From Ruegeria arenilitoris (lineage in GTDB: Bacteria > Pseudomonadota > Alphaproteobacteria > Rhodobacterales > Rhodobacteraceae), in NCBI RefSeq assembly GCF_013030985.1, contig NZ_WPYP01000012.1, positions 62,001 to 126,000 of the forward strand: 64,000 nt of DNA. The letters are read 5' to 3'. The position numbers and the translations under genes were made by a program. The notes beneath the pieces are model-generated. The model made no database searches. It saw only the letters and a list, made by a program, of their open reading frames with translations, and was not told the DNA's origin. Positions 5,769 to 62,015 of this stretch are shown here, piece after piece (the first letter of the stretch is position 1; the number at the start of each line of letters is the position of its first letter).

Positions 5769-6365
5769 GTGTCCCGTTTGTCAGACATTGAAATCCGCAA
5801 ACTTCAGATCATTGAAGCCACCATGGACGTTCTGAATGATCAGGGGTTCTGTGCGCTGAAGATCAGGGATGTGGCGAGTCAGGCGGGTGTTTCTGCCGGG
5901 CTGGTCTGCCACTATTACGACACCAAACAGGGGCTGCTGCTGGCGGCAATCCGCCATGCGGTGACGTGCTACGGGGAGCAACTGGACCTGATCGCGGAAC
6001 AGGACATCCCGCCGCGGGACAAGGTGCTGGCGCTGGTGCGCATGGCGCTGGCGCCCGAGCAATCGAACAAACGGCTGTCGTCAGTGTGGCTGACGCTCTA
6101 TTGCCTAGCCGGGTCGGACGCCGAGTATCATCAGGAACTGCTGCGCTATCAGCAGCAGAACCTTGACGTTGTTCGCGCGGCAATCGCGCCGCTTTATTCT
6201 GGTGAAGAGGCCGCGCACATTGCGCGCATGATCGTTGCGCTGATTGACGGAGTATGGCTGCAACATGCAACCCGCGTCGAGCCCGTCGACCTGAAAGCGG
6301 CCCAGAATCTGGTGGCCACCCTGACAGAACAGGCGCTTTCAGCGCACCGCTCAGACGGACCGTAG
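5769..6365 (+). CDS. TetR-family repressor, BetI-like
   Basis: About 198 residues from the GTG at 5769, which is preceded by AGGAG ten bases upstream; this matches the usual BetI length better than the longer upstream frame. The N-terminal helix-turn-helix is ALKIRDVASQAGVSAGLVCH followed by YYDTKQGLL, close to the BetI pattern. The C-terminal half resembles the BetI ligand domain (NKRLSSVWLTLYCLAGSDAEYHQEL). It should repress the divergent cupin-GMC operon through the twin palindromes and probably its own gene. The ligand may be choline-like. It is called BetI-like and not betI because the usual bet genes are absent. Confidence 0.85.
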   Translation: MSRLSDIEIRKLQIIEATMDVLNDQGFCALKIRDVASQAGVSAGLVCHYYDTKQGLLLAAIRHAVTCYGEQLDLIAEQDIPPRDKVLALVRMALAPEQSNKRLSSVWLTLYCLAGSDAEYHQELLRYQQQNLDVVRAAIAPLYSGEEAAHIARMIVALIDGVWLQHATRVEPVDLKAAQNLVATLTEQALSAHRSDGP

Positions 6366-6404
6366 ACTGCCCGCGCGACGCGATCGAAGAACCCGGGCCG
6401 GGAC

Positions 6405-8165
6405 CTACCCGCTAACCGAGGACAACCTCGTCGCGCTACCAACGCTGAGGTCGCTTTGGGCAAGACTTGTCCAAGCATCGTATTGCGACAGGAACACCCG
6501 GCCGTTCAGAACCTCGGGAAAATGTGTGCGGTTCAGCCTGTCCATGACCGGTCCCTTGACCTCGGACAGATGCAGACCAACCCCCATATCGGTCAGCCGG
6601 TGATTTATCGCCTCAAGGCTTTCGAGGGCTGAGAAATCGACCTCGTTCACCGCAGAGAACATCAACACCACGTTTCGAACCGCGCTGCCTTCGGTCACGC
6701 GGCTTTGGATCAATGTCTCCAGAAAACGCGCGTTCACGAAATACAGGCTTTCGTCTACCCGCAGCGTTACCAGTGAAGGCACGGTCTCGACCTCATGGCG
6801 CAGGATGTTCCGGAAGTGCTGGGTTCCGGGGACAAGGCCCACCTCGGCCACATGCGGGCGTGAGGTCTTGTAGAGGTGCAGCAGAACCGAGATCGCCACA
6901 CCGGACGCCACCCCAACCTCGACCCCCAGCCCCAGAGTCAGCAGAATGGTCGCGGTCACGGCGGTAAAATCGGCGCGGGAGTAACCCCAGGTTTTCTTCA
7001 GAATGGACAGGTCCACAAGGCTGAGCACTGCAACGATGATGGTCGCCGCCAGCGTGGCCTTGGGCAGGTAGAAGACCAAAGGCGTCAACGCGACCGCGGC
7101 GATGGCCAGACCGATGGCGGTAAAAGCACCCGCCGCTGGCGTTTCCGCCCCGGCGTCGAAATTGACGACCGAGCGGGCAAACCCGCCGGTGACCGGATAT
7201 CCTCCGGTAAAGGCGGCACCCAGATTTGCGGCCCCAAGACCGATCAATTCCTGATCCGGATCGATGCGCTGGCGTTTCTTGGCGGCCAGAGTTTGCGCGA
7301 CCGAGACGCTTTCGACAAAACCAATGATCGAAATCAGGATTGCCGGAACCGCAAGCGCGCTGATCAGATCCGGGGAAAACCCCGGCAGGGTCAGGGGTGG
7401 CAAGCTTTGGGGGACGCTCCCGACGATCTGCACGCCCTCTGCAGCCAGATCGAGTTGCCAGACGGCAACGGTTGTGGCGACCACCGCTGCGACAGGACCG
7501 GCCTTGGTCAGAATATCGGCCAACACCGGCGGCACCCCCAACCGGTTCAGAAACGGTCTGAGGTTTTTTCGCACCCAGAACAGAAACCCGGTCGCCAGAG
7601 TTCCGATTGCCAGGGTCACCCAATTGACCTCGGGCAGGTGCCGATATACCGAGCCAAGCATTTCCGGCAACGTGTGCCCATGCGCGCTGATCCCCAGAAT
7701 GTGTTTGACCTGGCTGGTCGCGATCAGGATGCCCGAGGCCGTTATGAACCCGGCAATTACCGGATGGCTGAGGAAATTGGCCAGAAACCCTAGGCGCAGA
7801 ACGCCCATGAGTACAAGAAACCCGCCAGACAGGAAAGCCAGCGTCAGCGCCGCAACCGCATAGCCCGCTGTGCCTTGCTCGGCCACCTGCCCAATGGCCG
7901 TTGCCGTCAGAAGTGAAACCACCGCCACGGGCCCAACCGCCAACGCCCGGCTGGTGCCGAAGACTGAATACAGCACGATGGGCACGATGGAAGCGTAAAT
8001 CCCTGCCTCGGGGGGCAAGCCAGCCAGCAAGGCATAGGCCAGCGATTGCGGAATCAGCATGATCGTCACGATTAGTGCCGCAACAAGGTCGTTGGAAAAG
8101 GCGCCGCGCGTATAGGTTCTGCCCCAGTCCAGAACAGGGACGTATTGGCGGAGGTGTTCGATCAT
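6405..8165 (-). CDS. SulP-family anion transporter with STAS domain
   Basis: 586 residues. Residues 1 to about 420 are a SulP membrane domain with many hydrophobic helices; the SulP hallmark VTIMLIPQSLAYALLAGLPP is near residue 35. A cytosolic STAS domain follows from about residue 435 (SLVTLRVDESLYFVNARFLE, then VVLMFSAVNEVDFSALESLE). SulP proteins move sulfate, bicarbonate or other anions, often with Na+ or H+. Placed last in the sulfide-oxidation run, 85 bp after the SQR fusion, it may export sulfate or sulfite or take up a sulfur anion; direction and substrate cannot be read from sequence. Confidence 0.9.
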   Translation of the reverse strand: MIEHLRQYVPVLDWGRTYTRGAFSNDLVAALIVTIMLIPQSLAYALLAGLPPEAGIYASIVPIVLYSVFGTSRALAVGPVAVVSLLTATAIGQVAEQGTAGYAVAALTLAFLSGGFLVLMGVLRLGFLANFLSHPVIAGFITASGILIATSQVKHILGISAHGHTLPEMLGSVYRHLPEVNWVTLAIGTLATGFLFWVRKNLRPFLNRLGVPPVLADILTKAGPVAAVVATTVAVWQLDLAAEGVQIVGSVPQSLPPLTLPGFSPDLISALAVPAILISIIGFVESVSVAQTLAAKKRQRIDPDQELIGLGAANLGAAFTGGYPVTGGFARSVVNFDAGAETPAAGAFTAIGLAIAAVALTPLVFYLPKATLAATIIVAVLSLVDLSILKKTWGYSRADFTAVTATILLTLGLGVEVGVASGVAISVLLHLYKTSRPHVAEVGLVPGTQHFRNILRHEVETVPSLVTLRVDESLYFVNARFLETLIQSRVTEGSAVRNVVLMFSAVNEVDFSALESLEAINHRLTDMGVGLHLSEVKGPVMDRLNRTHFPEVLNGRVFLSQYDAWTSLAQSDLSVGSATRLSSVSG

Positions 8166-8250
8166 CTAGACTTTCCAGCGTTCAGAGCGGGCGGTGCTGT
8201 CGGCACCACCCGCATGTCGTTGCGCACAAAATCGCAGGCAGACCTAATTT

Positions 8251-9930
8251 TCACTCTGGTGCAACATTCAGCTTCTCGGGCCGCGCCATCCATTCCTTGC
8301 CGCGCAACATGGCCTTCCAGTAGATCGGCGGCAGCAGGCTTTCCTTCAGGAACCATGCCATGCGGCTTGGTTTTGTTCCGTCGATCAGGAAACGCGGGAA
8401 ACTGGGTTTCAGCGCACCGCCATAGCCGAATTCGGCCAGAACGATCTTGCCGCGCTCGACCGTCAGCGGGCAGGAACCATACCCGTCATATTGCGCCACA
8501 GCCGAACGCCCTGCGATGTCGGCCACGATGTTGCCCGCCACGGTTGGCGCTTGTTTCCTGGCCGCGGCGGCAGTTTTCGCATTGGGCGCATTCATCACGT
8601 CACCAAGCGACCAGATATTGTCGTAGGTTTTGTGACGCAGTGTCGATTGATCCACGTCGACCCAGCCCGCCGCATCGGCCAGCGGTGAGACACGCACGAA
8701 ATCAGGTGCAGTCTGGGGCGGGCACACATGGATCATGTCAAACTCGACCTCGACTGTATCCGGGTCACAATCCCCTTTGACCACTTCGAACACCGCCCTT
8801 TTGGCTGGCCCGTCGATTGACACGAGATTGTGGAAGAAGTTCAGCGTGGCACCGTATTTCTCGATATATCGCTCCAGCGCCGGAACATAATCCTTGACCC
8901 CGAACAACACGCCGCCCGCGTTCATGAACTGGATGTCGATATCCTTCAACGCGCCGCTTCGAAACCAGGCATCGCCCGAGAGGTACATGGCCTTTTGCGG
9001 CGCCCCGGCGCATTTGATCGGCATCGGCGGCTGGGTAAACAGCGCCTTGCCTTCTTTCATCTCCTGCACCAGTTGCCAGGTGTAGGGTGCAAGGTCATAG
9101 CGGTAGTTCGACGTCACACCATTGCGGCCCAAGGTCTCTTCCAGCCCCTCGACCTTGCCCCAATCCAGTTTCAGACCGGGGCACACGACAAGGCGGTCGT
9201 ATTTCACCACCCGGCACCCGTCCAGAACGACGGCGTTGTTCTGCGGCTCGAACGCCGCGACCGCGGCCTTGATCCAGTGTACACCCTTCGGGATCAGGCT
9301 ACCCATGGTTTTCGCTGTTGTCTGGGCGTCAAAGATGCCGCCGCCCACCATGGTCCAGCCGGGCTGATAATAGTGAATATCAGCCGGATCGATCACCGCG
9401 ATGTCCAAATCAGGTTGCCGCGACTTCAGGCTGGCAGCGACTGACATGCCACCTGCGCCCGCGCCGACAATTACAACCTGAAAATGCGCGTCGCCCGTGT
9501 CGGTCGGGGTTTTCCCGCCATTGGCAATGCGGCGGGCAACGCCGTTCATGTCATAGCCCGCAGCCTTGGTGGCCATCAGGATCTCGGACATGGGGCGCTT
9601 CTTGGCCTCGTGAAATGACCACAGCGTGGCCGAGCGTGTCCCGGTCCGGCAATAGGCCAGCACCGGGCGCTGGACGTCCTCCAACGCCTCACCAAACGCT
9701 GCAACATCCTGATCTTTCACCATGCCGGACTGCACCGGGACATAGCGCGCCTCGATCCCTGCGGCCTCGGCGGCGGCGGCGATCTCCTTGAACGACGGCT
9801 GGTCGGCGCCCTCACCATCCGGCCGGTTGCAGATGATCGAGCGGTATCCCTGTGCCGAGATGGTCCGAACGTCATCAACCGTGATCTGCGGGCTGACCGT
9901 GAACTTGGGCGATATGATACGAAGTTCCAT
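8251..9930 (-). CDS. DUF442 phosphatase-like domain fused to sulfide:quinone oxidoreductase
   Basis: 559 residues. Residues 1 to about 110 form a DUF442 (Blh N-terminal, tyrosine-phosphatase-fold) domain with the active-site-like YCRTGTRS near residue 95. From about residue 150 a FAD-dependent SQR follows (QVVIVGAGAGGMSVAASL). Two cysteines sit in blocks known from type II SQRs, KCAGAPQKAMYLS and YGSCPLTVERGK. These match the redox cysteines that oxidise sulfide to a persulfide while electrons pass to quinone. The C-terminal SLLPPIYWKAMLRGKEW is typical membrane-associated SQR sequence. It lies 21 bp after the MBL-fold gene, so the product persulfide would feed that enzyme. The role of the DUF442 domain is not established. 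Confidence 0.9.
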   Translation of the reverse strand: MELRIISPKFTVSPQITVDDVRTISAQGYRSIICNRPDGEGADQPSFKEIAAAAEAAGIEARYVPVQSGMVKDQDVAAFGEALEDVQRPVLAYCRTGTRSATLWSFHEAKKRPMSEILMATKAAGYDMNGVARRIANGGKTPTDTGDAHFQVVIVGAGAGGMSVAASLKSRQPDLDIAVIDPADIHYYQPGWTMVGGGIFDAQTTAKTMGSLIPKGVHWIKAAVAAFEPQNNAVVLDGCRVVKYDRLVVCPGLKLDWGKVEGLEETLGRNGVTSNYRYDLAPYTWQLVQEMKEGKALFTQPPMPIKCAGAPQKAMYLSGDAWFRSGALKDIDIQFMNAGGVLFGVKDYVPALERYIEKYGATLNFFHNLVSIDGPAKRAVFEVVKGDCDPDTVEVEFDMIHVCPPQTAPDFVRVSPLADAAGWVDVDQSTLRHKTYDNIWSLGDVMNAPNAKTAAAARKQAPTVAGNIVADIAGRSAVAQYDGYGSCPLTVERGKIVLAEFGYGGALKPSFPRFLIDGTKPSRMAWFLKESLLPPIYWKAMLRGKEWMARPEKLNVAPE

Positions 9931-9951: not shown

Positions 9952-10836
9952 TTACAGGCCGTTGACCGGCACCTTGAGCATCGGGTTGCCATCGGTGTCT
10001 GTGGGAACCTCTCCGGCCCGCATGTTGACCTGCAGAGAGGGGATGATGAGGTTGGGCATGGCAAGCGTGGCATCCCGTTCGGTGCGGAACCTGACGAATT
10101 CCTCTTTCGTCTTGCCGCCGCCGACATGGATGTTGTGGGCCTTTTCCTCGGCCACGCTGGTTTCCCAGGCGATATCGCGCCCGTTCGGCCCATAGTCATG
10201 ACACATGAACAGCCGGGTTTCATCTGGCAGGGCCAGAACCCTCTGGATCGAGTCATACAGAACACCTGCATCCCCGCCCGGAAAATCGGCACGGGCCGAG
10301 CCGCCGTCGGGCATGAACAAGGTGTCGCCGACAAAGGCCGCGTCGCCGATCACATGTACCATGCAGGCCGGCGTGTGACCGGGCGTATACATGGCAAAGG
10401 CCTGCATGGAGCCGATCATGTAGGTGTCGCCATCCTCGAACAGTGCATCGAATTGCGACCCGTCGCGCTGAAACTCGGTGCCTTCGTTGAAGACTTTCCC
10501 GAACGTATCCTGCACAACGGTGATCTTCGATCCGACCCCGATTTTACCGCCCAGTTTCTCCTGAATATACGGCGCCGCCGAAAGGTGATCGGCGTGGACA
10601 TGGGTTTCGATAATCCACTCCAGCTTCAGCCCTTTTTCCGTAATCACGCGGATCAGTTCATCAGCATGATCAAAGGTGATGCGACCCGCCGCGTAATCGA
10701 TATCCATAACGCTGTCGACGATGGCGCAGGCATTCGAACCCGGGTCCTTGACGATATAGCTGATGGTATTTGTGGCCTCGTCGAAAAACGCGAAAACATC
10801 GGGTTTAACGGCCATGTTTACGGGGTAGGTCGTCAT
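9952..10836 (-). CDS. MBL-fold persulfide dioxygenase-like hydrolase (Blh/ETHE1 type)
   Basis: 294 residues with a complete metallo-beta-lactamase fold: THVHADH near residue 75, YTPGHTPACM, and GDTLFMPDGGSARADFPGG. The GG-rich third block is typical of the ETHE1/Blh branch, which oxidises glutathione persulfide to sulfite with mononuclear iron. Next to an SQR this is the expected second step of sulfide oxidation. It is preceded 46 bp upstream by the DUF2892 gene and shares its promoter. The family call is strong; the precise substrate (glutathione or another thiol) is inferred. Confidence 0.88.
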   Translation of the reverse strand: MTTYPVNMAVKPDVFAFFDEATNTISYIVKDPGSNACAIVDSVMDIDYAAGRITFDHADELIRVITEKGLKLEWIIETHVHADHLSAAPYIQEKLGGKIGVGSKITVVQDTFGKVFNEGTEFQRDGSQFDALFEDGDTYMIGSMQAFAMYTPGHTPACMVHVIGDAAFVGDTLFMPDGGSARADFPGGDAGVLYDSIQRVLALPDETRLFMCHDYGPNGRDIAWETSVAEEKAHNIHVGGGKTKEEFVRFRTERDATLAMPNLIIPSLQVNMRAGEVPTDTDGNPMLKVPVNGL

Positions 10837-55404: not shown

Positions 55405-55488
55405 GCTGAAACCGGGGCAAGCGCAAGAAGGCACGCGCCCTGCCCTGTCGTGCGGATGACGTACAGGGCAACATTGCGCAAATGTGAC

Positions 55489-55515
55489 TTGGCACGCCCG
55501 GTTCCCGGGTATAAC
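55489..55515 (+). promoter_or_regulatory. Predicted queC promoter
   Basis: TTGGCA at 55489-55494 and TATAAC at 55510-55515, separated by 15 bp, just upstream of the riboswitch. Transcription would start close to base 55522, at the beginning of the aptamer. Spacing is slightly short, so moderate confidence. Confidence 0.45.
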
Positions 55516-55524
55516 AGGATGCAT

Positions 55525-55560
55525 CCCGGTCGCAGCCTACCCGGGTAACAAAACAAGGGT
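55525..55560 (+). promoter_or_regulatory. preQ1-I riboswitch controlling queC
   Basis: P1 stem CCCGG (55525-55529) pairs with CCGGG (55541-55545). The loop TCGCAGCCTAC carries CCT, which can pair with AGG at 55556-55558 in the A-rich tail (TAACAAAACAAGGG), forming the H-type pseudoknot. That AGGG is also the ribosome-binding site of queC, 8 bases before its ATG, so preQ1 binding should hide it. This matches the preQ1-I class (type 2) layout closely and sits before the queuosine biosynthesis genes. Confidence 0.85.
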
Positions 55561-55567
55561 TCAAAAC

Positions 55568-56269
55568 ATGAAAACGATCGTAATCTGCTCGGGCGGGCTG
55601 GATTCGGTGTCGCTGGCACATATGGTTGCGCGCGATCACCAGCTGACGGGCTTGATTTCCTTTGACTATGGCCAGCGTCATCGCAAAGAGCTGGACTATG
55701 CCGCACTCTGCGCGCAGCGGCTGGGTGTGCCCCATGACATCATCGACCTGCGCTCGGTCGGGGCGGTACTGACCGGATCGGCGCTGACCGACGATGTGGA
55801 CGTGCCCGACGGGCATTATGCCGAGAACAGTATGCGCGTGACCGTGGTGCCCAACCGAAACGCGATCATGCTGACCGTGGCCTTTGGGGCCGCCGCAGCA
55901 CGCGGGGCAGATGCAGTGGCGACGGCGGTGCATGGCGGGGATCACTTTATCTACCCCGACTGCCGCCCAACCTTCACGCAGGCCTTCGAGACGATGCAGA
56001 AACACGCGCTGGACGGCTATGCGGATGTGTCGCTGTTCACGCCGTTTGTCCATCGCAGCAAGGCCGACATCGTGACCGAAGGCGCGCGTGTGGATACAAC
56101 TTTTGCGCAAACCTGGTCCTGCTACAAGGGCGGCGAACTTCACTGCGGGCGCTGCGGTACCTGCGTTGAACGGCGTGAGGCATTCCATCTGGCCGGTGTC
56201 GCAGACCCGACCACCTATGAAGATCCCGATTTCTGGGTCGCAGCGACGGCGCAGAAGGAAACTGCCTGA
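55568..56269 (+). CDS. queC: 7-cyano-7-deazaguanine synthase QueC
   Basis: 233 residues from the ATG at 55568. The PP-loop ATP site is ICSGGLDSVSLAHM near residue 7, and the C-terminal zinc site is formed by cysteines in CYKGGELHCGRCGTCVERRE. QueC turns 7-carboxy-7-deazaguanine and ammonia into preQ0 at the cost of ATP. It starts the queC-queD-queE-queF run, each gene overlapping or nearly touching the next, behind a preQ1 riboswitch. Confidence 0.96.
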   Translation: MKTIVICSGGLDSVSLAHMVARDHQLTGLISFDYGQRHRKELDYAALCAQRLGVPHDIIDLRSVGAVLTGSALTDDVDVPDGHYAENSMRVTVVPNRNAIMLTVAFGAAAARGADAVATAVHGGDHFIYPDCRPTFTQAFETMQKHALDGYADVSLFTPFVHRSKADIVTEGARVDTTFAQTWSCYKGGELHCGRCGTCVERREAFHLAGVADPTTYEDPDFWVAATAQKETA

Positions 56270-56622
56270 TGTACCGGATTACCAAAGAGTTCCATTTCTC
56301 CGCCTCGCACCAATTGACCCATTTGCCCGATGACCACCAATGCGCGCGGATGCACGGGCACAACTATATTGTCGAGGTCGAGCTGGCCGCGCCCGAGCTG
56401 AACGCCGACGGGTTCGTGCGCGACTATGGCGAGTTGAAACCTCTCAAGACTTATATCGACGAAACCTTCGATCATCGCCACCTGAACGACGTGATGAACA
56501 TTCTGACCACGGCCGAGAACATGGCGCGTCATTTCTTTGACTGGTGCGCCGCGCGCTGGCCGGAAACCACCGCCGTAAGGGTCAGCGAAACGCCAAAGAC
56601 ATGGGCCGAGTACCGCCCATGA
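56269..56622 (+). CDS. queD: 6-carboxy-5,6,7,8-tetrahydropterin synthase QueD
   Basis: 117 residues; ATG overlaps the queC stop. The zinc-binding histidines lie in [10 protein letters not shown] and [13 protein letters not shown]; the FDHRHLND block is typical. QueD converts 7,8-dihydroneopterin triphosphate into 6-carboxytetrahydropterin. The short length is normal for this family. Confidence 0.95.
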
Positions 56623-57329
56623 CCCGCCTGCGCATTTCCGAGATTTTCGGCCCCACGATTCAGGGCGAAGGCGCGCTGATCGGAGAGCCGACCGTGTTCG
56701 TGCGCACCGGTGGTTGTGACTATCGTTGCAGCTGGTGCGATAGCCTGCACGCGGTCGACACCGCCTATCGTCACGATTGGGCCGCGATGTCCACGGATGC
56801 GGTCTGGGACCGGGTGCACGCCTTGTCGGGCGGGCGGCCTCTGACCGTGTCGCTGTCCGGGGGCAACCCGGTCATTCAGGACTTTGCCCCGCTGATCGCG
56901 CGTGGCCGGGCCAAAGGGTATCGGTTTGCCTGCGAAACTCAGGGCTCGATCGCAAAGCCATGGTTCGGCGAACTGGACACGCTGGTCCTCAGCCCGAAGC
57001 CGCCGTCGAGCGGTGAAGACGTGGACTGGAACGCCTTCGCGGCCTGTATCGAGGCCGCGCAGGATGGCCCGAAGGTGGTGATGAAAATCGTGATCTTCGA
57101 TGAGGCCGATTATAACTGGGCCCGCGCCGTGGCTGACCGCTATCCGGCGCTGCCGCTTTATCTGCAACCAGGCAATGCCGTGGTCGATCCCGACCTGCCG
57201 GTCGATCCGCAAACCCTGTCGGACCGGTTGCTGTGGCTGGTGGAAAAGGTGACCGCCGATGGCTGGTTCACGCCACGGGTCCTGCCGCAACTGCACGTCC
57301 TGTTATGGGGCAACAAACGCGGGGTCTGA
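56619..57329 (+). CDS. queE: 7-carboxy-7-deazaguanine synthase QueE
   Basis: 236 residues from the ATG at 56619 overlapping the queD stop (ATGA). A radical-SAM Fe-S motif C33-x3-C37-x2-C40 in [14 protein letters not shown] is present, after [20 protein letters not shown]. QueE forms the 7-deazapurine ring from QueD's product using AdoMet radical chemistry. It is followed 15 bp later by queF. Confidence 0.95.
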
Positions 57330-57347
57330 CCCCGAAAGGAGCACATG

Positions 57348-57809
57348 ATGGAAACCATTTACAGCGACCTGACCCAGCTGGGCGGGAAGACCGAACTGCC
57401 GGCCTCGCCCGAGCAGGCAGAGCTTGAGCGGGTGCAGAACCCGCAGGCCGATATCGATTATTGCGTGCGCTTCACCGCGCCCGAGTTCACCTCGCTCTGC
57501 CCGATGACCGGACAGCCGGATTTTGCCCATCTGGTGATCGACTATGTGCCGGGCGATTGGCTGGTGGAATCGAAATCCCTGAAACTGTTTCTGGGATCAT
57601 TCCGCAACCATGGCGCGTTTCATGAGGATTGCACCGTGTCCATCGCCCGCCGTCTGGTCGAGTTCCTGGACCCGCGGTGGCTGCGCATTGGTGGCTACTG
57701 GTATCCGCGCGGTGGTATTCCCATTGATGTCTTCTGGCAAACCGGCGCCACACCCGATCACGTCTGGATTCCCGATCAGGGCGTGCCGCCCTATCGCGGG
57801 CGTGGATAG
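57348..57809 (+). CDS. queF: NADPH-dependent 7-cyano-7-deazaguanine reductase QueF
   Basis: About 153 residues from the second of two adjacent ATGs, the one better spaced from AGGAG. The catalytic cysteine is C51 with D58 ([13 protein letters not shown]); the QueF motif [20 protein letters not shown] follows. It is the short, YkvM-type enzyme that reduces preQ0 to preQ1, the riboswitch ligand, closing the loop. Last gene of the operon. Confidence 0.95.
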
Positions 57810-58091: not shown

Positions 58092-58481
58092 ATGGACGGT
58101 TCTTCGTCTTCTTTGGGTACACACCTTATAGCAGATTTTTTCGACGCAAGTGCGCTTTATGATCCCGTTCCCGCCGAAGATGCCCTGAGACGTGCCGCGA
58201 TTGCTGCCAAAGCGCATGTTCTGGGTGTGAATACCCATGATTTTGGGCAGCGGGCGGGGTTCACCGGGGTCGCGCTGCTGGCCGAGTCGCATATCTCGGT
58301 CCACACCTGGCCCGAACATGGATATGCCGCCATCGATATCTTCATGTGCGGCGATGCCAAACCACAGCTCAGTCTGGACGTTCTGAAATCCTATTTCCGC
58401 CCGCAACGCGTCAACGTGCAGTCCATACGCCGTGGCCTGATTGGTCACGCGACACCCCGGCTCGCCGTGGCGGGCTTCTGA
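58092..58481 (+). CDS. speD: S-adenosylmethionine decarboxylase SpeD
   Basis: About 129 residues from the ATG at 58092. It is the prokaryotic type-1 pyruvoyl enzyme: the cleavage site is E65-S66 in ESHISVHTWPE, giving a pyruvoyl group on S66, with H71 and C86 (DIFMCGD) at the active-site positions. It makes decarboxylated AdoMet, the aminopropyl donor for spermidine synthases, consistent with the membrane aminopropyltransferase 2 kb downstream. Starts 7 bp before the rhomboid-GNAT gene ends a tight run. Confidence 0.9.
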   Translation: MDGSSSSLGTHLIADFFDASALYDPVPAEDALRRAAIAAKAHVLGVNTHDFGQRAGFTGVALLAESHISVHTWPEHGYAAIDIFMCGDAKPQLSLDVLKSYFRPQRVNVQSIRRGLIGHATPRLAVAGF

Positions 58482-58488
58482 AAGGCGA

Positions 58489-59790
58489 ATGGAAGAGCTG
58501 CGCAGATGCCCGGTTACGATAGGCCTCATACTCAGCGCGATTGCGGGATATGCTTTGCTGGGTCCGGTCCGGTATTCCGGGCCAATCGAAACTTTCCCGG
58601 ATCATCTGCTGTTCACGTTTCGGCACGGCAATCTGAGCCACCTGACCCTCAATTGCCTGCTGATCCTAGTTGGCGGCAGCTTTACCGAACCCGTTCTGGG
58701 CTGGCTCCGCACATTGGGCCTTGTCGCCCTGTTCGCCTTGGCCGGAACAACCGCCGAGTTGGTGCTGGCCGGACCGGGGTTTGTCGGCCTGTCCGGTGTT
58801 GCCTACGGTCTGGTTTCCTATGGCCTGATCGTCGCAAGCCCGCCGGAACGGCGCGGCTGGACGCTGGCCTTGATCTGCATCGTTCTGGGGGCCGAGTGGT
58901 TGTTCCTGCACCCTCAGATCGCCGTTTTCACCCACATCACAAGCGCCTTGATCGGCGGAGGACTGGCCATGTTTAGCGCCCTTTTCGGCTCGAGTGGGCC
59001 AAAGCTCAAACCTATGGAATGGCGGCATGTGTCTCCGGCCATCCAGATCATCGCACAGACCGATGAGGATGACGCGACCGAAGCTGAAAGCAAGTTTCTG
59101 GAAGAGGGAACGGACAACATGTTCGTCCTACAGGAAAAGGGCAACGTGCTTGGGCTGATCGGCTATAGCCTGGACGAAGATGTGCCGGACGTCGCGTGGC
59201 TGTCCTGGACCTATCTGGATCAGGCCCATACCGGCAAGGGTCTGGGCGCGCTGATGCTGAACGACCTGCTGGGAAAGCTGGCGCAGCTGCAAGTGCGCAA
59301 GATTTTCATCGAAACCAGCGACTATGAAGAGTTCGGCAAGAAACTCTACGCCGCCGCACATAAACTCTATGAAGAGTTCGGTGCCTCCGTCGAATTGACC
59401 GTACCCGGGTACCATGGCCCGAACGAAGCCAAGATCGTCTATGGGCTGGAGAACCCCGAGGCATCTGAGACGCCGCGCATAGAGCCGTCTCCGAATACCG
59501 GCCTGTCGATCTTCGAGATCCACAAAGCCCCCGAAACCGACGATGTGGCGGGCCTGCGCTGGCGCGAAACCAACGCCGGGCTCAGCGGGCTGGAGCAACA
59601 GCTGTCGCTGGCGCGCAGTCAGAAATACCGCATGGCCGTTCTGGCCATCCCATCCGACCTGTCCGACGCCAATGCAGCCGACCTGCAAGCGCAGGGCCTG
59701 CAAAAATGCGGTGAACTCAAAGAGTTCTACGGCAAGGACCTGCATCAGGTCTGGTGGAGCAGTGATTCAGGAACAACCAAAAATACATAG
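58489..59790 (+). CDS. Rhomboid protease fused to a GNAT acetyltransferase
   Basis: 433 residues from the ATG at 58489, 7 bp after speD. Residues 1 to about 170 form six hydrophobic helices with a rhomboid active site: FRHGNLSHLTLNCLLILVGG, catalytic S102 in GLSGVAYG and H149 in FTHITSALIGGG. Residues about 190-320 are a GNAT domain: NMFVLQEKGNVLGLIGYSLD and AHTGKGLGALMLNDLLGKLA (acetyl-CoA loop near residue 247). About 100 further residues (SIFEIHKAPETDDVAGLRWR) match no domain I know. Membrane protease and acyl-transfer domains on one chain is a rare arrangement; its place between speD and an aminopropyltransferase suggests acetylation of a polyamine product, which is inference. Confidence 0.8.
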   Translation: MEELRRCPVTIGLILSAIAGYALLGPVRYSGPIETFPDHLLFTFRHGNLSHLTLNCLLILVGGSFTEPVLGWLRTLGLVALFALAGTTAELVLAGPGFVGLSGVAYGLVSYGLIVASPPERRGWTLALICIVLGAEWLFLHPQIAVFTHITSALIGGGLAMFSALFGSSGPKLKPMEWRHVSPAIQIIAQTDEDDATEAESKFLEEGTDNMFVLQEKGNVLGLIGYSLDEDVPDVAWLSWTYLDQAHTGKGLGALMLNDLLGKLAQLQVRKIFIETSDYEEFGKKLYAAAHKLYEEFGASVELTVPGYHGPNEAKIVYGLENPEASETPRIEPSPNTGLSIFEIHKAPETDDVAGLRWRETNAGLSGLEQQLSLARSQKYRMAVLAIPSDLSDANAADLQAQGLQKCGELKEFYGKDLHQVWWSSDSGTTKNT

Positions 59791-59799
59791 GAGCATTCA

Positions 59800-60387
59800 A
59801 TGTTTGGTAATCTGAAAACGATCGTCATTGTCGGCGTTCTGGGCTTTGCGGCCTATTCGATCTTTTTGTCCCCGAAATCGGAACAGACCGCTGATCTCGG
59901 GCAGGTTCTGGACCGCACGGAATTCGCCATCATCCAATACCAAGAGTATCTGGACGCCAACAGCATCGCCGAAGCCTCGGACGAGCAGGTCGATGAATTC
60001 ACGGACTATCTGACGCAGGTAATGAATACGGAACCGCGTTTTTACGACGAGCCTCTGGGTCTGGATATTCTGTCCGACGCCAAATTCTCGGGCTATGCCG
60101 ACCCGAACGCAAACGGTATTCGTGATTCCGGTGAAGGAGAGATATTCACCATCGAGATCGACGAGGCCAACAACCGCCTGATCGCCACCGACACCACCGG
60201 TCAATCCGCTGGACTGCGATTCTCGGGCGCAGGATTCCTGGCCGGCGCGCTGATTGGCAACCTGATCGGCCGCCAGCGTTCGGCCGGCATCTCCGCCGCC
60301 AGCTTCAACAACCGGACCGTGACCCCGCGCACCAGCTATTCGGCCCCGCGCAGCGCCCGCTCGGGCGGATTGCGCACAGGTAAATAA
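59800..60387 (+). CDS. Small membrane-anchored protein of the speD cluster
   Basis: 195 residues, 9 bp after the rhomboid-GNAT gene. An N-terminal hydrophobic anchor (NLKTIVIVGVLGFAAYSIFL) is followed by a soluble, acidic stretch with an EF-hand-like DPNANGIRDSGEGEIFTIEI (calcium-binding pattern), a second glycine-rich hydrophobic segment (AGFLAGALIGNLIGRQRSAG), and an Arg/Ser-rich tail. No domain is recognised. It probably faces the periplasm from the inner membrane, where it could work with the two membrane enzymes around it. Confidence 0.72.
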   Translation: MFGNLKTIVIVGVLGFAAYSIFLSPKSEQTADLGQVLDRTEFAIIQYQEYLDANSIAEASDEQVDEFTDYLTQVMNTEPRFYDEPLGLDILSDAKFSGYADPNANGIRDSGEGEIFTIEIDEANNRLIATDTTGQSAGLRFSGAGFLAGALIGNLIGRQRSAGISAASFNNRTVTPRTSYSAPRSARSGGLRTGK

Positions 60388-60416
60388 GCACCGCGCAGAC
60401 ATCACACCCCAACAGG

Positions 60417-60445
60417 GCCCGGCGCATCAATCGTGCCGGGCTTTC
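60417..60445 (+). terminator. Hairpin before the membrane aminopropyltransferase
   Basis: GCCCGGC, an 11-nt loop, GCCGGGC followed by TTT. It lies 30 bp after the anchored protein and 20 bp before the aminopropyltransferase, so it may separate or attenuate expression of the latter. Confidence 0.5.
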
Positions 60446-60464
60446 CAGTTTCTCGGATATTTGC

Positions 60465-62015
60465 ATGACCGACACCCTGACACCGCGTTACTCGGACCTG
60501 CCCCGCCGGCAGGCAATGGTTCTGCTGGGCGCAATCCTTGTTGTTGCCCTGTGTGGCATTGTCTACGAACTGATCATCGGGACGGTGTCCAGCTACCTTC
60601 TGGGCAACTCGGTCTATCAGTTCTCGCTGACCATCGGGTTCTTCATGTTCGCCATGGGGGTCGGGTCCTACGTATCCCGTTTTTTCCACGGCAATCTGAT
60701 CCAGACATTCATCTGGGTCGAGCTGATCCTGGCCCTGATCGGTGGCCTGTGCAGCGTGTCGCTGTTCATGCTCTTTCCCTATGCGCCGTGGTTTTACACG
60801 GTTGGCATGTTCACCTTCATCTCGTCCATCGGGTTTCTGGTCGGGCTGGAGATTCCCCTGCTGATGCGGGTTCTGTCCGAAAGCAGCACCACGCGGGAAT
60901 CCATCGCCGATGTGCTTTCGCTGGACTATATCGGTGCGCTTGGCGGGTCCGTTCTGTTCCCCATCCTTCTGCTGCCGTCCCTTGGGCTGATCTCATCCTC
61001 GTTCGCCATCGGTCTGACCAACGCCATGGTCGCGTTGCTGAGCGTTCTGTGTCTGCGCGACCAGCTGGACGCGCCAAAAAGGATGCTGGCCTGCGCGATC
61101 GGCACCATTGTTCTGCTATTCGCGCTGACCTTGCTGGCCGGGCGGATTACCGCATTTGCGCAGGACCACCTGTATTTTGACCGTATCGTCTGGCGAAAAC
61201 AGTCGCAATACCAGTCACTTGTGGTCACCAATACCTGGCAAAAGAACGACGTACGCCTCTATATCGATGGCCATCTGCAATTTGCCGAAGCGGACGAGTA
61301 TCGCTATCACGAGGCACTGGTTCACCCGGTTCTGTCCTGGGGCGATAGTGATCCCAAATCCGTATTGGTGCTGGGCGGAGGTGACGGGCTCGCCGTGCGC
61401 GAGATCCTGAAATACCCAAGCGTTTCGCGCATTGATCTGGTCGATCTGGATCCGGCGATGACTGACCTGGGGCGCAATCTGGCCCCGATTGCCCGACTGA
61501 ACGAAAACAGCATGGAGGCGTCGTCGCTGAACGTCCACAACACCGACGCGTTCAACTATGTCAAATCCACCGATCAGACCTATGACCGGATCATCATCGA
61601 CTTCCCCGACCCCCATAACGAGGCGTTATCCAAGCTTTACTCGATCGAGTTCTACGCCATGGTCCAGAGCATCCTGTCCGAGGATGGTGTGTTGGTCACG
61701 CAAAGCAGCTCACCGTTCTTTTCGCCCCATACCTATTGGACTGTTTCCGAGACCTTGTCCGAGATTTTCCCGCAGGTCGTGAATTATCAGATGTCGATCC
61801 CCTCGTTCGGGATTTGGGGATACAACCTTGCGGCCAACGATCCGGCCTCAACGCTGGGCGACCTGCCCGAAGGCCTGAGGTTCGTAACCCCTGAGGTTTT
61901 CGCCGCGGCCCAGGTATTTTCCGAGGACCTGCGGCCCAAGCGTGAACTGGCCGTCAACTCGATCTTTGATCCCGGTATCTACCACGAGTATTCGCGCGAC
62001 GTATCCGGCTATTGA
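60465..62015 (+). CDS. Membrane-embedded polyamine aminopropyltransferase (spermidine synthase)
   Basis: 516 residues. About seven hydrophobic helices occupy residues 15-210 (for example AMVLLGAILVVALCGIVYEL), followed by a full spermidine-synthase-type domain: DGHLQFAEADEYRYHEALVH, dcAdoMet-binding VLVLGGGDGLAVREILKYPS, DLVDLDPAM and YDRIIIDFPDP. The C-terminus closes the fold. Membrane-anchored aminopropyltransferases are known but uncommon, and occur in neighbourhoods with SpeD. It would add an aminopropyl group to a substrate at the inner face of the membrane, using SpeD's product made next door. Confidence 0.9.
   Translation: MTDTLTPRYSDLPRRQAMVLLGAILVVALCGIVYELIIGTVSSYLLGNSVYQFSLTIGFFMFAMGVGSYVSRFFHGNLIQTFIWVELILALIGGLCSVSLFMLFPYAPWFYTVGMFTFISSIGFLVGLEIPLLMRVLSESSTTRESIADVLSLDYIGALGGSVLFPILLLPSLGLISSSFAIGLTNAMVALLSVLCLRDQLDAPKRMLACAIGTIVLLFALTLLAGRITAFAQDHLYFDRIVWRKQSQYQSLVVTNTWQKNDVRLYIDGHLQFAEADEYRYHEALVHPVLSWGDSDPKSVLVLGGGDGLAVREILKYPSVSRIDLVDLDPAMTDLGRNLAPIARLNENSMEASSLNVHNTDAFNYVKSTDQTYDRIIIDFPDPHNEALSKLYSIEFYAMVQSILSEDGVLVTQSSSPFFSPHTYWTVSETLSEIFPQVVNYQMSIPSFGIWGYNLAANDPASTLGDLPEGLRFVTPEVFAAAQVFSEDLRPKRELAVNSIFDPGIYHEYSRDVSGY

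Follow-up and report, generated by a model that had tools for sequence, protein, structure and literature searches.

What might a gene for S-adenosylmethionine (AdoMet) decarboxylase, a rhomboid fused to a GNAT acetyltransferase, a small anchored protein and a membrane spermidine synthase be doing side by side? The question is raised by a module of four plus-strand genes in Ruegeria arenilitoris (assembly GCF_013030985.1), which lies in a window of 64,000 nucleotides covering positions 62,001 to 126,000 of contig NZ_WPYP01000012.1; coordinates given here without further label count from the first letter of that window, the whole stretch of DNA analysed. The four genes are speD (58092..58481), the rhomboid-GNAT fusion gene (58489..59790, product P0002), the gene for the anchored protein, here called P3 (59800..60387), and speE, encoding the long synthase SpeE-B (60465..62015), separated by 7, 9 and 77 bases, respectively. 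The original prediction for this DNA, drawn from its letters alone, treated them as one cluster serving aminopropylation of a substrate at the membrane; all four proved to be present and intact, and the order speD, fusion, P3, speE was kept in 12 of the 12 loci in which we found the module. Our best reading is that the module is a variant of the envelope systems built around SpeD and a seven-transmembrane (7TM) aminopropyltransferase.

Of 394 Rhodobacteraceae genomes (393 genera), 31 scored above the cut-off of the long-synthase profile, and retrieval of the loci gave two types: 27 with DUF350 and DUF4178 (type A) and 12 with speD, fusion, P3 and speE (type B), the latter drawn from eight Rhodobacteraceae genomes, our own included, and four named Ruegeria loci from another collection. 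Neighbours were sought with a single tblastn query apiece (E ≤ 1e-3), domain names being checked on three example proteins. Type-A loci carried DUF4178b (27/27), DUF350 (27/27), DUF4178a (26/27) and, in eight of 27, a nearby speD, and contained neither the fusion nor P3 (0/27); conversely, DUF350 and DUF4178 were found by these single-query searches in none of the 12 type-B loci. Both types occur in four genomes, our own among them. There, the second long-speE locus (L049; G000:C23:340000-357000, 6336-8403) belongs to the DUF4178/DUF350 type. Its DUF4178b open reading frame (ORF), with 328 residues where the other 26 have at least 423, lies directly next to a transposase-like ORF (named by eye), and the locus is the only one of the 27 type-A loci that lacks DUF4178a, so this copy may be damaged.

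The two types also differ in their synthases. A maximum-likelihood tree calculated for 59 synthases, which takes in 20 from outside the family and leaves out the outlier L084, groups the 12 type-B rows in one clade (support 100/100, branch 1.21) and gathers the 27 type-A rows in a second (100/100). An earlier tree of 40 rows gave the same type-B clade on a longer branch (3.22); we prefer the larger tree because a very distant row was included in the earlier one. In a search of 398 genomes of the phylum with the type-B synthase profile, 39 gave a match at E ≤ 1e-60, six of them being our own genome and members of the family; after our own genome, the best matches came from outside the family (526.5 bits), above the type-A synthases within it (at most 451.6 bits). 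Twenty regions from outside the family held speD in 11, DUF350 in seven, DUF4178a in ten and DUF4178b in 12, with the fusion and P3 in none (0/20 each), all by single-query tblastn, which misses diverged copies. Two of the loci outside the family (L132 and L134) show, by eye, DUF4178, a DUF350-like ORF and a flavin amine-oxidase-like ORF after speE; none of the latter kind was noticed in type-B loci, though no search aimed at one there.

The fusion was found in only eight of the 394 family genomes (at most four candidates scored per genome), two of the ten genomes that matched having been left out as plain rhomboids (L016 and L017). All eight lie among the 31 with a long synthase, an outcome with a chance of 6e-10 on the assumption of independent genomes, which does not hold. 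Among the 398 phylum genomes (again at most four candidates each) the fusion occurred in our own genome only: 59 matched the query, the others covering just the rhomboid part (up to position 189), except for one GNAT-only row. P3 was likewise confined to our own genome among 289 genomes of the class (at most 11 candidates each), and neither protein had a match in 72,556 plasmid records. The original prediction had named rarity of the fusion, free separation from speD and the synthase, and variable rhomboid residues as signs against a joint role; rarity did occur, separation was seen in none of the 12 loci and the rhomboid residues are invariant. The flanks of most type-B loci differ by eye. 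Two modules lie directly downstream of genes that resemble those for capsule export (L076, 700-1929; L081, 5703-8476), KpsE-like in both and with an ABC ATPase in L081, again by eye; we did not take these genes as part of the module.

How does the module compare with systems already described? We know of no function for the SpeE/DUF350/DUF4178 envelope operons. Section 19 of PMC11237479 describes operons in which a protein joining a spermidine-synthase domain to a 7TM domain stands with DUF350, DUF4178, a lipoprotein and PspA, together with DUF1190/ATP-grasp operons, some variants of which include AdoMet decarboxylase; in kind, these 7TM-type operons bear out the idea of a membrane-linked spermidine synthase system. 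Our module shares with them the aminopropyltransferase family and the presence of small membrane partner genes, and differs in having the fusion and P3 in place of DUF350 and DUF4178 and in its separate synthase clade. P3 resembles the DUF1190 (YgiB/YjfM) proteins of the ATP-grasp/SpeD systems in being anchored, in a short glycine-containing hydrophobic stretch and in a C-terminus rich in serine, arginine and glycine; one DUF1190 protein ends RSGGWGG. Relationship was tried and rejected: hhalign aligned just 21 columns at 1.7% probability against a shallow four-sequence profile, a Pfam search of 13 P3 copies brought up no DUF1190 at E ≤ 0.1, and the equally shallow profiles of DUF4178a, DUF4178b and DUF350 gave 0.2%, 0.6% and 0.35%. 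A speD-speE pair is also found in Pseudomonas aeruginosa, where SpeD2-SpeE2 (PA4773-PA4774) reportedly has a surface-polyamine role. Its SpeE2, reported as a thermospermine synthase in PMC11107197, has 349 residues, in contrast to the 516 of SpeE-B.

Can the two polyamine enzymes of the module be expected to work? SpeE-B passes NF002956/PRK03612 at full length (592.2 bits against a cut-off of 472, profile positions 12-518 of 522), as expected for the 516-residue membrane spermidine synthase of the original prediction. Residues Q250, Y281, H282, GGGDG 304-308, D361, D379 and D382 are invariant in 12 sequences, in stretches that align with solved synthases, and we take them to be the donor-site and catalytic residues. 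SpeD, a class 1b AdoMet decarboxylase of 129 residues, matched PF02675 (E 6.9e-34) and TIGR03330 (116 bits against a cut-off of 75.65), with E65, S66, H67, H71 and C86 invariant in 12 sequences; E65-S66 is presumably the self-cleavage site. Homologues of SpeD may decarboxylate arginine or ornithine instead, according to PMC10407285, and by analogy the substrate of this SpeD could be either. The cluster speD is the sole TIGR03330 match in each of the eight type-B genomes, where all SpeE-profile matches (E ≤ 1e-20, at most three candidates scored per genome) are long forms, so the decarboxylated AdoMet (dcAdoMet) of these genomes appears to serve membrane synthases. A full-length match to NspC (carboxynorspermidine decarboxylase) was obtained in four of the eight, three over the cut-off, and in our own genome and three others NspC is a possible second route to spermidine, judging from profile scores in a search that covered NspC and not its partner dehydrogenase.

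These data bear on the plainest alternative, in which SpeD and SpeE-B would form an ordinary pathway to spermidine (or norspermidine or thermospermine), the GNAT would be a SpeG-like spermidine acetyltransferase guarding against overload, and the rhomboid and P3 would be regulators. The sole speD, the lack of a short SpeE among the candidates scored, the intact donor and catalytic positions and the four genomes with no full-length NspC all suit it. Against this stand the NspC of our own genome, over its cut-off at 421 bits, and a stronger constraint on the membrane part of SpeE-B than on the catalytic one (pairwise identities of 0.753 and 0.691, the corresponding values for type-A synthases being 0.663 and 0.647). 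Li et al. are said to have found in 2019 that membrane-linked spermidine synthase fusions fail to complement an Escherichia coli speE mutant. Taken together, we judge ordinary polyamine synthesis unlikely.

What, then, does the fusion protein contribute? P0002 (433 residues) exceeds the Pfam cut-offs for both domains that the original prediction had recognised in it: Rhomboid at residues 43-160 (37.7 bits against 22.6) and Acetyltransf_1 (PF00583) at residues 198-287 (38.7 against 20.7). In an alignment of P0002 with 11 relatives (38-96% identity), Ser102, His149, His51 and Asn55 are invariant in all 12 rows, Ser102 aligning with the serine of the GlpG GLSG motif and His149 with the histidine of the last GlpG helix, so that the Ser102/His149 dyad of the original prediction holds throughout. 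An AlphaFold2 model (mean predicted local distance difference test, pLDDT, 84.7; predicted template modelling score, pTM, 0.59) shows rhomboid helices between residues 8 and 165, then a GNAT fold (172-321) and, at 338-426, a beta-beta-alpha-beta-alpha-beta-beta unit, and its Foldseek matches in the PDB include GNATs (2r7h, TMt 0.84) and GlpG (2xow, TMt 0.67). From fold and dyad, the rhomboid domain (residues 1-167; 58489..58989) is predicted to be an active intramembrane protease of the kind that GlpG represents, and differs from GlpG-type proteases in carrying a C-terminal GNAT and a half-GNAT; from fold and score, residues 168-325 (58990..59463) are a predicted GNAT acetyltransferase. The GNAT is the best conserved part of the fusion, with 46 of 158 columns invariant, and its structural matches include acetyltransferases of small amines, such as EctA and a SpeG chimera. 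Both ends of GlpG are cytoplasmic, and from this topology the GNAT units would be cytoplasmic too.

The tail of about 100 residues that follows, previously noted as unassigned, is present and is probably a half-length second GNAT (residues 337-428; 59497..59772), a reading based on its profile alignment to the first GNAT and on its secondary structure: the hhalign match runs in register over 79 columns, with a single-pair E of 0.0019 and a probability of only 14.4%, and DSSP gave beta-beta-alpha-beta-alpha-beta-beta on a model with pLDDT mostly at 90-94. Among the papers listed by searches of mainly non-subscription literature, none has a title or abstract opening that mentions a rhomboid-GNAT fusion or a link between one and speD or speE; the word rhomboid is absent from the main text of PMC11237479, and neither acetyltransferase nor GNAT occurs in the main text of a rhomboid review (PMC12615303). 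Within this literature, such a fusion of rhomboid and acetyltransferase would add a domain arrangement not previously described for intramembrane proteases.

P3 is the unclassified member of the module. It passed no Pfam cut-off, had no NCBIfam or PDB sequence match at E ≤ 1 and found no fold in the PDB at E ≤ 0.001 (535 matches at E ≤ 10). It consists of an N-terminal anchor, an acidic domain with a D-x-N-type loop (101-112), a short glycine-rich hydrophobic segment and a cationic tail ending RSGG..GK. The original prediction had described a small inner-membrane protein with a calcium-site-like loop: D101, N103, D109 and E112 are indeed invariant, and by sequence the loop is compatible with a calcium site, while the single anchor has become uncertain because of the second hydrophobic, glycine-rich segment at about residues 136-159. 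The domain (114-115 residues) contains 21-25 acidic and 5-8 basic residues in all but one of the 12 full-length copies; the tail has 8-10 basic residues and at most one acidic. Conservation differs by region: over 12 of the 13 rows (the incomplete L010 copy being left out), the anchor (1-27) is least conserved, with no invariant column and an identity of 0.40, the glycine-rich segment (142-160) has seven of 19 columns invariant (0.74) and the last 11 residues have six of 11 (0.82), RSGG..GK being invariant in all 13 copies. The AlphaFold2 model (13 sequences, no membrane; mean pLDDT 78.9, pTM 0.75) gave ten-residue blocks between 31 and 180 at 86-94, except for 141-150 at 69, with residues 1-28 and 186-195 below 50.

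Two P3 variants deserve mention. Ruegeria sp. HKCCD8929 (L007) has tandem copies before speE (9323-9910 and 10016-10642), the second with a diverged anchor, a domain of 25 acidic and 15 basic residues, and RSGGLRAGK kept. In the L010 (G310) copy, a stop codon interrupts the anchor region (about 2794-2815), the rest of the frame being open, which may reflect assembly error or decay.

Putting these parts together, we tentatively favour, with rather less than even confidence, a model in which the rhomboid-GNAT protein acts on P3 and SpeE-B acts on an acceptor at the membrane face, the GNAT substrate being either the P3 tail or the aminopropylated product. SpeD would make dcAdoMet, from which SpeE-B, in the inner membrane, would move an aminopropyl group to an acceptor on the cytoplasmic face, probably other than free putrescine. 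P3 is predicted to span the membrane twice, with its acidic calcium-loop domain in the periplasm, then the glycine-rich helix and a cytoplasmic cationic tail, the location to which the positive-inside rule would assign such basic residues. As the dedicated client of the neighbouring fusion, it would be cut by the rhomboid in or beside the glycine-rich segment, in the orientation N-out/C-in; the cytoplasmic GNAT would acetylate the tail or the aminopropylated product, and the envelope state sensed by P3 would gate the modification. A bolder reading, in which a hypusine-like protein modification would be made from dcAdoMet and coupled to intramembrane proteolysis, is in our view a long shot.

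Several observations weigh against the client model, and its main weakness is a conflict over the P3 tail between its positive-inside placement and the helix packing of the monomer model. In the membrane-free model, residues 151-180 reach pLDDT 88-92, and the pTM of 0.75 suggests that the glycine-rich helix lies against the domain instead of crossing the membrane, in which case the tail would be periplasmic, beyond reach of SpeE-B and the GNAT; the modelled helix is also only 12 residues long and weakly hydropathic. Catalytic residues apart, no other part of the fusion is as poorly conserved as the rhomboid domain, in which 14 of 167 columns are invariant. The acetyl-CoA motif of GNATs reads R/Q-x-x-G-x-G/A, and in the fusion G249, G251 and G253 are invariant, with residue 248 being R or Q in four of 12 rows and T or A in eight. 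Finally, NspC matches are weak or absent in the remaining four type-B genomes, where SpeE-B could still make ordinary polyamines because a full-length NspC is missing.

Might no protein be modified at all? In that case, SpeE-B would aminopropylate a lipid or a diffusible amine at the membrane, the GNAT would N-acetylate the product, and P3 would serve as a scaffold or as a calcium sensor, with the rhomboid controlling how much of it is present. That the other long-SpeE loci, 27 within the family and 20 outside it, lack P3 favours such a small-molecule or lipid system, since the chemistry of the enzyme family evidently needs no P3, and the EctA and SpeG-chimera matches of the GNAT point the same way. 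Left unexplained is the strongest conservation in P3, that of its C-terminal RSGG..GK. We regard this as a serious, if somewhat doubtful, possibility.

The order of elements in P3, a glycine-rich motif, then a hydrophobic stretch, then basic residues, raises one more alternative, with rhombosortases and their GlyGly-CTERM targets (TIGR03902/TIGR03501) as the precedent: the rhomboid would cut P3 at SGxG before the glycine-rich helix and join or release it, with SpeD, SpeE and the GNAT preparing a group for the new C-terminus. As in those pairs, the rhomboid stands beside a single candidate target, the two genes being consecutive, as in most one-target genomes (PMC3237569), and P0002 has rhombosortase as its best NCBIfam match, a family that all 12 members match along with just one other. 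However, P0002 reaches 32.2 bits against the TIGR03902 cut-off of 84 (E for the best of the 12 members, 4.3e-9), and GlpG scores nearly as high; the P3 element is internal, about 35 residues from the C-terminus, in a protein that matches no NCBIfam family at E ≤ 1, and cutting there would lose the best-conserved tail. The fused GNAT and the polyamine-type partners are further differences from rhombosortase pairs. GlyGly-CTERM (TIGR03501) matches were found in none of the eight type-B genomes, but in none of 14 controls either. Sorting of this kind seems to us quite improbable.

The 77-base gap between P3 and speE (60388..60464, plus strand) holds a GC-rich hairpin with a stem at about 60414-60444 (folding z -2.61). 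Such a hairpin is present in 11 of the 12 type-B loci, with differing sequences and often followed by a short U run; z ranged from -0.71 to -3.22 in ten scored loci, L078 being weak (-0.71) and L004 folded without shuffles, and from -0.33 to -3.22 over the 12 stretches given z-scores. L007 has no hairpin before speE (z -0.33), and the gap between its two P3 copies gave -0.75. The hairpin, at most a putative terminator, may set the ratio of P3 to SpeE. The module adjoins a queuosine gene set (55484-57809; QueC-, QueD-, QueE- and QueF-like ORFs, named by eye).

Long membrane aminopropyltransferases turn up repeatedly in the phylum, as the 39 of 398 genomes matching the type-B profile indicate, and we know of no target for any of them. 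In type B, a protease, an acetyltransferase and a single small protein whose tail is invariant take the place of the usual partners. With a concrete candidate client and catalytic residues that can be mutated, the question of what these enzymes modify therefore becomes testable in marine Ruegeria.

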